From Fimbriimonas sp. (GTDB taxonomy: Bacteria; Armatimonadota; Fimbriimonadia; Fimbriimonadales; Fimbriimonadaceae), in NCBI GenBank assembly GCA_031292555.1, contig JARLGV010000104.1, positions 62,001-126,000 on the forward strand: DNA of 64,000 nucleotides, written 5' to 3'. A program made the translations under genes and the position numbers. Each line of letters starts with the position of its first letter. The first letter of the stretch is position 1. The notes beneath the pieces are model-generated. The model had not been told where the DNA came from. It saw only the letters and a program-made list of their open reading frames with translations, and searched no databases. Shown here in pieces: positions 46,391 through 51,976 of the stretch.

Positions 46391-46418
46391 CCCCGTGCCG
46401 CAAACGGGGTCTTTTTTT
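46391..46418 (+). terminator. Intrinsic terminator after the oxidoreductase
   Basis: 46391-46396 pairs with 46404-46409 over seven bases, followed by a T-rich run (46410-46418). It begins 18 bases after the stop. Confidence 0.9.
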
Positions 46419-46585: not shown

Positions 46586-49500
46586 ATGGGAAGGCTAGGT
46601 AAGGGGTTGATAGGTGCGGTGATCGTGAGCGCGCTGCCAGTGGCGGCGAACGCTCAGGCACCTTTTGCGCTCGATTCCAACCAAACTCAAACGCAAAAGA
46701 CTTCGGAAGTCGGCGGCACGCCGGCCATGGATGTCATCACCCTGAATGTCACCGGGCCTGGCACTCCTCTTCGATACGGCAACATCGTTCCGAATTCTGA
46801 GAGCGTCCAGCTTGACGGCGTTTTCCTGAAACAAGGCACGGACTACATGATGGATTACGCGGTCGGCGTGGTCTACCTCATGGTCTCCCAGCGTTCGGGG
46901 CAGGTCTTGACGGTCTCGTACCACTACAAGGCGGGCGCTGCACCGGCTCAATCCAGCCAGTTTGCCGGCTTCACGACGTTCAAGTATTCGCTCCTTCCTG
47001 GCTCGCTGAACATGATCACCGGATTGGGAATGGCGGAGCGCGGAGAGAACGGCTCCGTCATGTCCAGCAACCTTTACGGTTGGAATAATGCCTTCAAATT
47101 CGGTCAGAGCGGCTCGGTTAATGGCATGTACATTGTCGACGAGCGGCAGCAAGTCAACAATATCGCTGGTCTAGGCTTGGATTCTACGACTGCCCGTGCC
47201 AAATCCTCGATCGGAAGTGGCAATACGCAGTTGATCATGGAAGGCGCCAAGACGTCGTTCATGGGCGGTCAGGCATCGATCGACTATCAGGACATCAGCA
47301 AGTCTTTCACCGGCTTTAATGCGGCCGCAACGTCTGGGCTGGACGACAAAGCCATCAACCAGCTTAAGGCGGAGCGGGGACTGAACCGTCTGGGCTTCTC
47401 CATGACCGACATGAGTCTCGGCGGCATGAAGCTGAGCGATTCGTACAAGACGGTCAAAGACGGCGAGAACGGAATTAAGTGGACGAACTTTGGGGTTGCC
47501 AACAAGGACGTCAAGTTCAATTGGTCTAGTCAGCGCGTCGACCAACACTTCATGCGCTCCAATGATCTGAGCGAGGCTGACAAGGCGCAGCTTGCGAAAG
47601 AGACCGGGATCAATCGCAACAACATGTCCGGCGAGTGGACCCAAAAGTTCGCCAAGCTGAACTACGCCAACAACACGATCGTTGACGCGGCGACCCACAA
47701 GCAGATTTCACAGAGCACTTGGGCTTTGGACGCTGGCAAGTACAAGTTCAACATGGGAAGTGAAGCCGTGGATAGCGGTTTCATGCGGTTCGGCAGCTTG
47801 TTGGCGCCCGAGATGACGACGTTCGGTCGTGAAGCGGGCGTGAACAGAAAATGGCTCGGATTCCAGGGCACGTTCCTAGGGAAAGACACGCCAGTCTCGT
47901 TCAATCAGACGAACATGACGTCTTCTACCGGGGCGAAGTACCTCGGGCAGGACGTGACGGTGACTTCAAAGGCGTGGAGCCTGAACCATGTCGAGCGGAA
48001 AGCAGATCTGAACTTCTCTCAGGTCGGCGCATTACCCGACGCCGAAATCAACAATGGCGTAGCGGCGATTGCTGCGATGTACGGTCCGGATGTAAAGCCG
48101 ACTCCGAACGACCGCGCCGAGTTCATTGCGACTCATGGCCTTGATCGTAAATACGACGGATTCACCGACACTTTCAAGGGCATCAAGTTGAACGCCGGCA
48201 TGCTCTCGATGAAGGGCATGACTGACGCAGGAAAGCTTGATACGTTCGCGATTTCAAGCAAGAACATGCTTCTCTCTTACAGACGAGAGAACCTGGGGGC
48301 CCAATTCAACGAGATTACTTCGATGATGGATGTCGAAAAGTCTCGGCTTGGAACCCTGCCGGGACTTAAGCGAACCGATATCGACTTTTCGGGCACGTTC
48401 GGCAAGAGGAAGCTAACTTTCGACAACATGAACGCCACGACGCTCACCGGCAATGTGGCGCGCACGTCGTTGGGCTATGAAGATACCAAGATCAGCATTC
48501 AAGCCAATCAGCGGAACGTTTCGAGTGCATTTGCGGACGCAAACAACCTGGTAGATCCAGAGAAGAATATCCTGAACCAGTTGATCGGCTTCCATGAGAA
48601 AGACGTCAAGGTCAAGTGGCAATTGATGTCGAACATGAACCTCGATTCGACCTATCAGGACATGGTCAACCCCGTCAATAATCAATCTTGGCGGATTCGA
48701 AACAACGTTCTGAACTGGAGCCCGGACAAGAACACCCAAATCAACTACACGGATATCGAGCAGCATAACTCGGATTCAGTGTTGGCGCTCTTTGACAGTT
48801 CGGTCGAAAAACTATCGTTGACTCGCAATATGGGTCGATACGGAGTCTTGACGTTGCTTGGAGAGAACGACCAGTACTCGGGCATCAACGCCAATCTGCT
48901 TAGCCAAAACCACGACTACGTGGCCTATGACGCGAAGTTGACGACTACGACGAGCTTTAAGACAGAGCAGACCCTGACGACCTATGCGAATGGCTCGCAC
49001 GATGAGGTCAACGCCAACACGTTGAGCACGCAACTCTCAAATCGGGCAGGGGTTAGTTTCACCGACACGCAAATCAACCGCCAGGGCTACAACGACGAAA
49101 CGCATCGGAACTACGGATTCTATTACGACCTCGGTAACGGGGTTCGGATGAGCTACGGTTACGCCATGCAGGGCTTGCCGAAAGACCAGGGCACTTCCAG
49201 TTCGTCGTTCACCCTTGGCAAGGCGCCACCGGCAACTACCGCGCTCACGCCAGGGCAGGTACAGCCAGTTCAGGCAGGCGATTTTGGAAACTTCCAGTTG
49301 GGAGCGGGATACTTCGCGAATCAGTGGGACGCTCAAAACCGGACTCAGACGAACGGCAACGTTTCAGTAGTTACGGCGAAGCCGTTCAATCTGGGCTTTG
49401 TGAAGAACGTGAAGATGGCGCTGAACATGGATACCGGCACGGACCATGCCGCTGTCATGCGCGAGAACAAGCTAATTGGCGTGTCTGGAACCTTCGGCAC

Positions 49501-50134
49501 CAATACAATCGGCTACGAATACAAGAGTCAGCTGGATCCGACTGGCTTGCGCGCGATCGATCGAACAGTAACTCTTCAGACTGATCCTTCAGACAAGAAA
49601 CTAGTCAATGTGACCTTGTCTTACAAGGATCGTACGACGACGACCGACCAACAGATTCTCATCCGGAATTATAGCTTCGCGATTCGACCGGTCAAGAATT
49701 TCGTCTTGACCAATCAGGTCCAGACGAATCCTGAAATCGCCAATGCCAGCGCAATCCTGGGCTCGCTGCCGCAGGCATCCAGCAGCGACAAGTGGCAATT
49801 GGACTACAAGCAGAATCCAAATTTCACGATCGGTGGAAGCTTCGAGGAACTGCTCAACAGCCAGACTCGATCGATGTCACGAACTGGTGGAATTACTGCC
49901 AAGCTGTTTGAGAAAGTCGGTTCGCCGTTAACGCTGTTTGTCGGCGTTGAGCAGGCAGATCAAGCAAACCTCTGGCGCAACACACGCCGATGGAGTATTC
50001 AGTTCGATCAGAAGCCGGCTTCCAACCAGACGCTGAGCTTCCTTGTTGGTAGTCTAAGCTACGAGCATAGTATTCCCGTGGGTTACCACCCTGAGAACAT
50101 GACGGTCCGCATGAATTATCAGTTCCGATTCTAG
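46586..50134 (+). CDS. Giant outer-membrane beta-barrel-like protein with internal repeats
   Basis: 1182 residues. A signal peptide of about 24 residues (cleaved after ANAQ) leads to a strand-rich globular part (45-115). Residues about 125-1182 alternate amphipathic strands and loops rich in Asn, Ser, Thr and Gly. The C-terminus ends MTVRMNYQFRF, a Phe-terminated amphipathic strand as in BAM-inserted outer-membrane proteins. At least six degenerate units of about 75-100 residues are seen near 245-283, 316-360, 392-432, 468-535, 571-611 and 640-686. Each contains a short helix-like stretch, then a G-hydrophobic-x-R motif, then a pair of strands ending in F-x-x-x-x-L. I recognise no named family. 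A TACAAT at 46454-46459 with GTAACA 17 bases upstream is a possible promoter. Confidence 0.75.
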   Translation: MGRLGKGLIGAVIVSALPVAANAQAPFALDSNQTQTQKTSEVGGTPAMDVITLNVTGPGTPLRYGNIVPNSESVQLDGVFLKQGTDYMMDYAVGVVYLMVSQRSGQVLTVSYHYKAGAAPAQSSQFAGFTTFKYSLLPGSLNMITGLGMAERGENGSVMSSNLYGWNNAFKFGQSGSVNGMYIVDERQQVNNIAGLGLDSTTARAKSSIGSGNTQLIMEGAKTSFMGGQASIDYQDISKSFTGFNAAATSGLDDKAINQLKAERGLNRLGFSMTDMSLGGMKLSDSYKTVKDGENGIKWTNFGVANKDVKFNWSSQRVDQHFMRSNDLSEADKAQLAKETGINRNNMSGEWTQKFAKLNYANNTIVDAATHKQISQSTWALDAGKYKFNMGSEAVDSGFMRFGSLLAPEMTTFGREAGVNRKWLGFQGTFLGKDTPVSFNQTNMTSSTGAKYLGQDVTVTSKAWSLNHVERKADLNFSQVGALPDAEINNGVAAIAAMYGPDVKPTPNDRAEFIATHGLDRKYDGFTDTFKGIKLNAGMLSMKGMTDAGKLDTFAISSKNMLLSYRRENLGAQFNEITSMMDVEKSRLGTLPGLKRTDIDFSGTFGKRKLTFDNMNATTLTGNVARTSLGYEDTKISIQANQRNVSSAFADANNLVDPEKNILNQLIGFHEKDVKVKWQLMSNMNLDSTYQDMVNPVNNQSWRIRNNVLNWSPDKNTQINYTDIEQHNSDSVLALFDSSVEKLSLTRNMGRYGVLTLLGENDQYSGINANLLSQNHDYVAYDAKLTTTTSFKTEQTLTTYANGSHDEVNANTLSTQLSNRAGVSFTDTQINRQGYNDETHRNYGFYYDLGNGVRMSYGYAMQGLPKDQGTSSSSFTLGKAPPATTALTPGQVQPVQAGDFGNFQLGAGYFANQWDAQNRTQTNGNVSVVTAKPFNLGFVKNVKMALNMDTGTDHAAVMRENKLIGVSGTFGTNTIGYEYKSQLDPTGLRAIDRTVTLQTDPSDKKLVNVTLSYKDRTTTTDQQILIRNYSFAIRPVKNFVLTNQVQTNPEIANASAILGSLPQASSSDKWQLDYKQNPNFTIGGSFEELLNSQTRSMSRTGGITAKLFEKVGSPLTLFVGVEQADQANLWRNTRRWSIQFDQKPASNQTLSFLVGSLSYEHSIPVGYHPENMTVRMNYQFRF

Positions 50135-51133: not shown

Positions 51134-51976
51134 CTATTCGTGTCGTCTGGCTGTCAGGGGCATTGGCCAGCGGCCGTAGATCACCTTGTTGCGATGCTCG
51201 ACGAATGCTACGTCGGGCTTCGCGACGATCAGTTGGCCGGATACGGTTAGGAAGTGACAACCGTCGTCGTGCCGCGATTCACCTTCCTTTCCGAATTTCC
51301 CGCCTGCGGAATTCGGGAAGGCCAGTCGCGTGGCAAACTGAGACTTGAGGTCGCCGTCGAAATTGTCGTTGTCCCATCCAATCACCATGCCGTCATAGGG
51401 CAGTTTGGCGCCGGAGCGATCGACGAACGGAATGGGATCGTAAGTGTTCGATGAGCCCAGGTTGCTCGTCTCACCGATCAGGATGGCCTCGTTCGGATCT
51501 TCAACTAGAGAACGATTGAAGGCTCCCAAGGGCGCGAACATCCCATAAGATACTGGAAACTTCTTGCTATCGGATCGCGGGTTCTGTGACCAGCTGTTTT
51601 CCTGGGGCGTCGCGGTCGGACAGGCGAAGGAAGCCCTCGGATTCATGTATTCGAACAGCTCACTCGCCCAAGTGTAAGGTGCTCCGGACGACTGGAGCAT
51701 AGGCTCATCAGCCCCGCCTGTTGCGTAGAGCGGGGGGAACTTGTCCTCGTTCAACGTCGCGTACTGGTTGATGGACGAGTTTATCTCCTTGAGATTCAAA
51801 ATGCACTTGGAGCTCTCGCTCTTGCGCTGGAGTACCTTAAAAATCGGATACATCATGACCGCCAACACCGCAACGGCGATGCCGACGATCTTGACGTCCT
51901 TGCGCGAAATGTACGCGGAACTCGATGGCGAACCGCCGTCCTGAGCCTCGGCTACTTCGTTTCCGTCCAGCCTCAC
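51134..51976 (-). CDS. Prepilin-like protein (DUF1559/H-X9-DG type)
   Basis: 280 residues. After about 28 polar residues comes a membrane helix (VGIAVAVLAVMMYPIFKVLQ), then SSKCILNLKEINSSINQYAT, the region where type II pseudopilins begin their globular part. The C-terminal RHDDGCHFLTVSGQL strand pair resembles the H-X9-DG ending of DUF1559 proteins, although the DG is changed. No classical prepilin cleavage site (G-FTLIE) is visible, so it may be a membrane-anchored relative. Its start overlaps the LCP gene stop by four bases, so the two are coupled. Confidence 0.7.
   Translation of the reverse strand: MRLDGNEVAEAQDGGSPSSSAYISRKDVKIVGIAVAVLAVMMYPIFKVLQRKSESSKCILNLKEINSSINQYATLNEDKFPPLYATGGADEPMLQSSGAPYTWASELFEYMNPRASFACPTATPQENSWSQNPRSDSKKFPVSYGMFAPLGAFNRSLVEDPNEAILIGETSNLGSSNTYDPIPFVDRSGAKLPYDGMVIGWDNDNFDGDLKSQFATRLAFPNSAGGKFGKEGESRHDDGCHFLTVSGQLIVAKPDVAFVEHRNKVIYGRWPMPLTARRHE

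Follow-up and report, generated by a model that had tools for sequence, protein, structure and literature searches.

Introduction

SprA (Sov), the translocon of the type IX secretion system (T9SS), is the closest described counterpart of the protein reported here. Its 36-strand barrel (PDB 6h3i) was described in 2020 as the largest outer-membrane barrel structure identified and, capped at the surface and open to the periplasm, it moves folded proteins (PMC7463736). Further large barrels are the 30-strand SlpA of Deinococcus (PDB 8ae1), three predicted 38-strand barrels of D. radiodurans (PMC9388160) and the 26-strand LptD. The growth of barrels by repetition has so far been studied on barrels of 8–26 strands (PMC6340704), and a literature search that covered few subscription papers or preprints returned no barrel of more than 38 strands.

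Here we analyze a gene in a 64,000-nucleotide stretch of DNA from Fimbriimonas sp. (phylum Armatimonadota), referred to below as the window. The hosts are diderm: outer-membrane and LPS genes have been reported in Armatimonadetes (PMC5629042), and BamA and LpxC were found in all 41 genomes scanned. The gene product, which we call the giant beta protein, represents a real, unannotated, phylum-wide family of outer-membrane proteins with unusual size and repeat architecture.

The gene and its surroundings

The open reading frame starts with ATG, ends with TAG, has no internal stops and encodes 1182 aa. The features of the locus are as follows.

46391..46417, + strand: terminator-like hairpin (CCCCGT...ACGGGG) followed by a T-run, TCTTTTTTTG
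46586..50134, + strand: gene of the 1182-aa giant beta protein (ORF, translation, orthologues)
46586..46654, + strand: signal peptide, residues 1–23 (cleavage at ANA/QA placed by eye)
50093..50131, + strand: last strand, ENMTVRMNYQFRF, presumed BAM beta-signal with terminal Phe (sequence, homologues)

The hairpin, a kind of site that is no more frequent in the region than expected by chance, lies between an upstream oxidoreductase gene and the gene of the giant beta protein. Given its position and the fact that no neighbor is kept beyond close relatives, the gene probably forms its own transcription unit, apart from the oxidoreductase. A search for a conserved operon around the gene found none; it stands alone, and outside close relatives the neighborhoods vary. 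One neighbor (window positions 51134-51976, - strand) encodes a protein whose hydrophobic N-terminus resembles by eye those of planctomycete type II pilin-like proteins, and members of its family were present in 14 of 23 neighborhoods. An envelope cluster with genes for a TamB-like protein of 1450–1515 aa, BamA, two Skp/OmpH-like proteins, an LpxD-like protein and LpxC was observed in the same genome (contig C68) and in a second one (G008).

By eye, residues 1–25 (MGRLGKGLIGAVIVSALPVAANAQA) form a typical signal peptide with charged, hydrophobic and A-x-A elements. The C-terminus reads ...VRMNYQFRF, with RF closing the last strand, and the homologues that were read likewise have an aromatic residue at or close to the end of the last strand. 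Both the signal peptide and the Phe-terminated last strand of the original prediction can thus be read from the sequence, together forming the export and beta-signal pair of an outer-membrane protein.

Predicted fold and repeat architecture

The full-length AlphaFold (AF2) model, built with 28 sequences (pLDDT 82, pTM 0.48), consists of a beta domain at residues 45–114 and, after it, about 55 antiparallel strands in succession, of 6–15 residues each, that run to the C-terminus. Helices of four or more residues were found only in the six repeat connectors. The layout, all on the + strand, is given below.

46718..46927, + strand: N-terminal small beta domain, residues 45–114, SprA-type 'G-x-DY-x-IDY-x-x-G' (AlphaFold, profile searches)
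46979..47296, + strand: strands 1–6, residues 132–237, outer face strongly hydrophobic (AlphaFold, hydrophobic-face scores)
47297..47539, + strand: repeat unit 1, residues 238–318, helical connector and strands 7–10 (repeat HMMs, AlphaFold)
47540..47770, + strand: repeat unit 2, residues 319–395, helical connector and strands 11–14 (repeat HMMs, AlphaFold)
47771..48004, + strand: repeat unit 3, residues 396–473, helical connector and strands 15–18 (repeat HMMs, AlphaFold)
48005..48295, + strand: repeat unit 4, residues 474–570, longer helical connector (insert of ~20 residues) and strands 19–22 (repeat HMMs, AlphaFold)
48296..48520, + strand: repeat unit 5, residues 571–645, helical connector and strands 23–26 (repeat HMMs, AlphaFold)
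48521..48670, + strand: repeat unit 6, residues 646–695, helical connector and strands 27–28 (repeat HMMs, AlphaFold)
48683..49090, + strand: strands 29–36, residues 700–835, strands 30–35 with a poorly hydrophobic face (AlphaFold, face scores)
49097..50125, + strand: C-terminal strands 37–55, residues 838–1180, strong alternation and hydrophobic outer face (AlphaFold, face scores)

A low-confidence insert, KAPPATTALTPGQVQPVQAGDFGN (residues 878–902, positions 49217-49291), separates two of the C-terminal strands and is far shorter in many relatives.

At least six degenerate repeats had been claimed, and six were recovered by HMMs built from single segments. In 25 aligned homologues each of these six HMMs matched other segments of the series, against 500 shuffled or 25 reversed sequences in which they almost never reached 5 bits. 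The consensus motif of the 25 homologues reads roughly V-D-x-G-F-x-R-F-x2-L-x3-E-x3-L-x2-E-x-G-L-x-R and occurs in six copies, with its conserved Phe at residues 241, 322, 399, 477, 574 and 649 and a period of 75–81 residues (about 77 aa), except for one unit of 97 residues. The 'G-hydrophobic-x-R core' described earlier is real, but it is the end of this longer motif, and four strands come after it instead of one pair. Within a protein the repeat cores are 20–43% identical, compared to 6.6% for random segment pairs (sd 1.7, max 13%), a comparison that is partly circular because it uses hand-chosen anchors. As the same unit series recurs in relatives belonging to several further families of the Armatimonadota, the duplication must be old, in agreement with the earlier view that the units are too diverged to be recent duplicates.

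The best Foldseek match was SprA, over the whole chain (E 5e-8), followed by apoB, LptD, SlpA and TonB receptors, so that every leading match is either a barrel of the outer membrane or a lipid-bound sheet; global superposition on SprA was poor (TM 0.13, rmsd 47 Å). VIA gave Z scores of 12–16 to porins and TonB receptors in two stretches with large rmsd, and a BFVD search returned only weak, unconvincing matches. Folded alone, residues 228–836 reached a pLDDT of 92 and a pTM of 0.74 as a sheet that stays open. This part differed from 14–22-strand barrels by an rmsd of mostly 13–23 Å over 200–320 residues and was more widely curved than they are; in a simple and crude geometric model, the curvature of the repeat half corresponds to a barrel of roughly 30–54 strands.

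Covariation was analyzed in an alignment of 123 homologues (Neff 87), in which outlier pairs dominated before clipping. Adjacent antiparallel strand pairs, including those that span the helical connectors of the repeats or reach strand 37, had far higher scores than distant ones (Mann-Whitney p 2e-21); parallel ladders were raised too, so part of this signal reflects mere proximity. Pairing of the first with the last strand was not seen in covariation, the score of strands 2 and 55 lying at about the 85th percentile of the background. The models and the covariation agree in an antiparallel up-and-down meander with strands of about 10 residues, and as a predicted structure an uninterrupted and very wide sheet has good support; from it we infer closure into one barrel. 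Of the large outer-membrane barrel initially proposed, the type of beta protein is upheld by AlphaFold, fold search, covariation and C-terminal signal, but not the closure, which was the key check named there: structure prediction supplied the strand count, while its models were open or poorly packed.

The best hydrophobic face per strand had a mean of 2.1 in strands 1–6 and 2.2 in strands 37–55, compared to 1.3 in strands 7–28 and 0.7 in strands 29–36. Individually, strands 1–6, 23, 26–29 and 36–55 scored high, strands 23 and 26–29 matching the chain ends, and strands 7–22 and especially 30–35 were weak. Such weak faces would not be expected of a wall in contact with lipid. These middle strands either are turned towards a sister subunit or partner proteins instead of lipid, or lie outside the membrane.

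Distribution and related families

Searches of Pfam, NCBIfam and PDB sequences returned no curated family over the full length of the protein; the original prediction could name none either. DUF2460 was considered and rejected: its matches, on the N-terminal domain of 15 of the 28 members, are weak (best 6e-4; 13.5 bits for the window protein, cut-off 30.4) and were taken as generic beta-domain resemblance. Pfam lists no S-layer, TonB-receptor or porin family for the protein, which counts as absence only.

In the Fimbriimonadales the gene is present as one copy per genome in essentially every complete member, with a match in 60 of 61 genomes, one of which (G039) has only the N-terminal domain, within a 618-aa protein. 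Among 291 Armatimonadota genomes the profile matched 202, some only through the N-terminal domain, and repeat-bearing relatives of 1030–1290 aa were read in several further families; named loci with a homologue include Fimbriimonas and Fimbriimonadaceae MAGs. The suggestion of a lineage-specific protein thus holds at the level of the phylum only, with a single copy throughout the order. Two near-complete 1.5-Mb genomes of the same family (G152 and G153), possibly streamlined, lack the gene and keep BamA, so the giant beta protein is not indispensable. A Fimbriimonadales-type homologue with 38% identity was also observed in JADZEW010000008.1, titled Methanoregulaceae archaeon and probably a mislabelled bin.

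The profile of the N-terminal domain matched region 686–732 of SprA with an E value of 4.1e-7, almost three orders ahead of any other PDB protein, which identifies it as a SprA-type beta domain. The same type of domain, often twice, was observed in a second unnamed Armatimonadota family of 850–960 aa (L105-L110), also strand-rich and with an aromatic residue at or close to the end of many members. Unlike the giant beta protein, this family has no repeat copy, differs in its strand-rich part and was not found in this genome. The one member scanned had no Pfam match, and a profile of these paralogues matched neither SprA nor any PDB barrel.

Alternative explanations

The top fold match, over the whole chain, the related N-terminal domain and the very wide antiparallel wall could suggest that the giant beta protein is the Armatimonadota SprA/Sov translocon of a type IX system. 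We regard this as very improbable, since the protein is half as long (1182 versus about 2400 residues), its ~54 predicted strands, for which closure is assumed, include six internal four-strand repeats not known from SprA, and Pfam found no SprA_N domain (PF14349) in 28 members. In the genome SprA_N scored at best 9.9 bits against a cut-off of 27, at another locus, and the Por_Secre_tail of T9SS substrates is absent. An LPS-inserting barrel in place of LptD is scarcely credible either, despite LpxC in 41 of 41 genomes, LptD and LptD_2 models (PF04453, PF19838) in none of them, and the likeness to LptD, which is a fold match and pairs a large outer-membrane barrel with a beta domain in the periplasm. 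The 28 members matched neither the OstA/LptD_N jellyroll nor the LptD barrel family, and relatives (L210-L212, L214) hold separate OstA-domain proteins of 776–806 aa with a strand-rich C-terminal part and an LptD-like look. Judging by these sequences LptD is probably present but diverged, so the giant beta protein need not export LPS, and the replacement was dropped. Hardly more can be said for an extended sheet, soluble or bound to lipid, in the manner of apolipoprotein B belts rather than a barrel: ApoB is among the Foldseek matches and the models are open sheets, but the aromatic C-terminal strand is kept in the family and the C-terminal third alternates strongly, a property whose statistics do not tell membrane beta proteins from soluble ones (the score of FimH is as high). 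A large barrel acting as outer-membrane scaffold or major pore rather than as gated translocon is unlikely, though less so. Its model would be SlpA, a large barrel of a deep-branching diderm and one of the fold matches; Deinococcus uses 28–38-strand barrels and its SlpA is structural (PMC9388160), and the single copy and the absence of operon partners fit such a role. However, neither an SLH nor any other S-layer domain was found in the 28 members, and the AlphaFold model, with no helix longer than 13 residues, has no coiled-coil stalk, so that the peptidoglycan tie of SlpA is missing. The same observations leave the surface-layer component offered in the original prediction without positive support.

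The weak hydrophobicity of the middle strands is the main reason for our moderate confidence and for considering another arrangement, the chief rival, to which we give a limited but appreciable chance. Here strands 1–6 and 37–55 would form a barrel of ordinary size, with ~24–25 strands, and the 30 middle strands (residues 240–836) would be an extramembrane insertion, for instance a surface wall or cap. The difference in face means between ends and middle agrees with this, as does the confident folding of the middle part alone. Yet that part remains open on itself, strands 23 and 26–29 are as hydrophobic as the ends, strand pairing goes on past the connectors and reaches strand 37, and the Foldseek and VIA alignments span the borders of the middle part.

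Discussion

We consider the chances even that the protein is a giant wide-sheet outer-membrane barrel, and its mode of action is most likely that of a giant barrel of the SprA kind, outside the T9SS translocon family. Export would be by Sec, with chaperones accompanying the chain in the periplasm and BAM inserting it by means of the aromatic C-terminal strand. First in the chain would come a small SprA-type beta domain, located in the periplasm, and then one antiparallel up-and-down sheet of ~54 predicted strands, about half of which are predicted to be six ancient copies of a four-strand unit; this sheet would close as a single, very wide barrel. At one rim the six helical connectors, which are conserved, would make up a ring. 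By strand parity, counted from the C-terminus, this is probably the outer rim, an orientation that hinges on how many strands the low-confidence stretch 860–905 contains; outside the cell the connectors could form a cap. The lumen may be a large conduit through which folded proteins or polymers pass and which, as in SprA, is closed off by the helical ring, the N-terminal domain or partner proteins. This large gated conduit is proposed solely by analogy with SprA, and the conduit role taken alone is possible but rather doubtful; as no partner genes are kept beside the gene, the neighborhood gives no pointer to its cargo. Only tentatively do we suggest the complete proposal, in which a single chain is both a closed ~54-strand barrel and a protein or polymer translocon independent of type IX, arisen by six-fold duplication of the four-strand unit before the Armatimonadota diverged.

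A closed barrel would surpass the 36-strand SprA in size and exceed the largest solved single-chain barrel, and it would provide a sequence-level case of barrel growth by repetition of a four-strand unit. Even if only part of the protein lies in the membrane, it would still be a phylum-wide outer-membrane protein without annotation. If the proposal is true, a little-studied diderm phylum would possess a conserved, unnamed large conduit, and the SprA-type domain would occur outside the type IX system.
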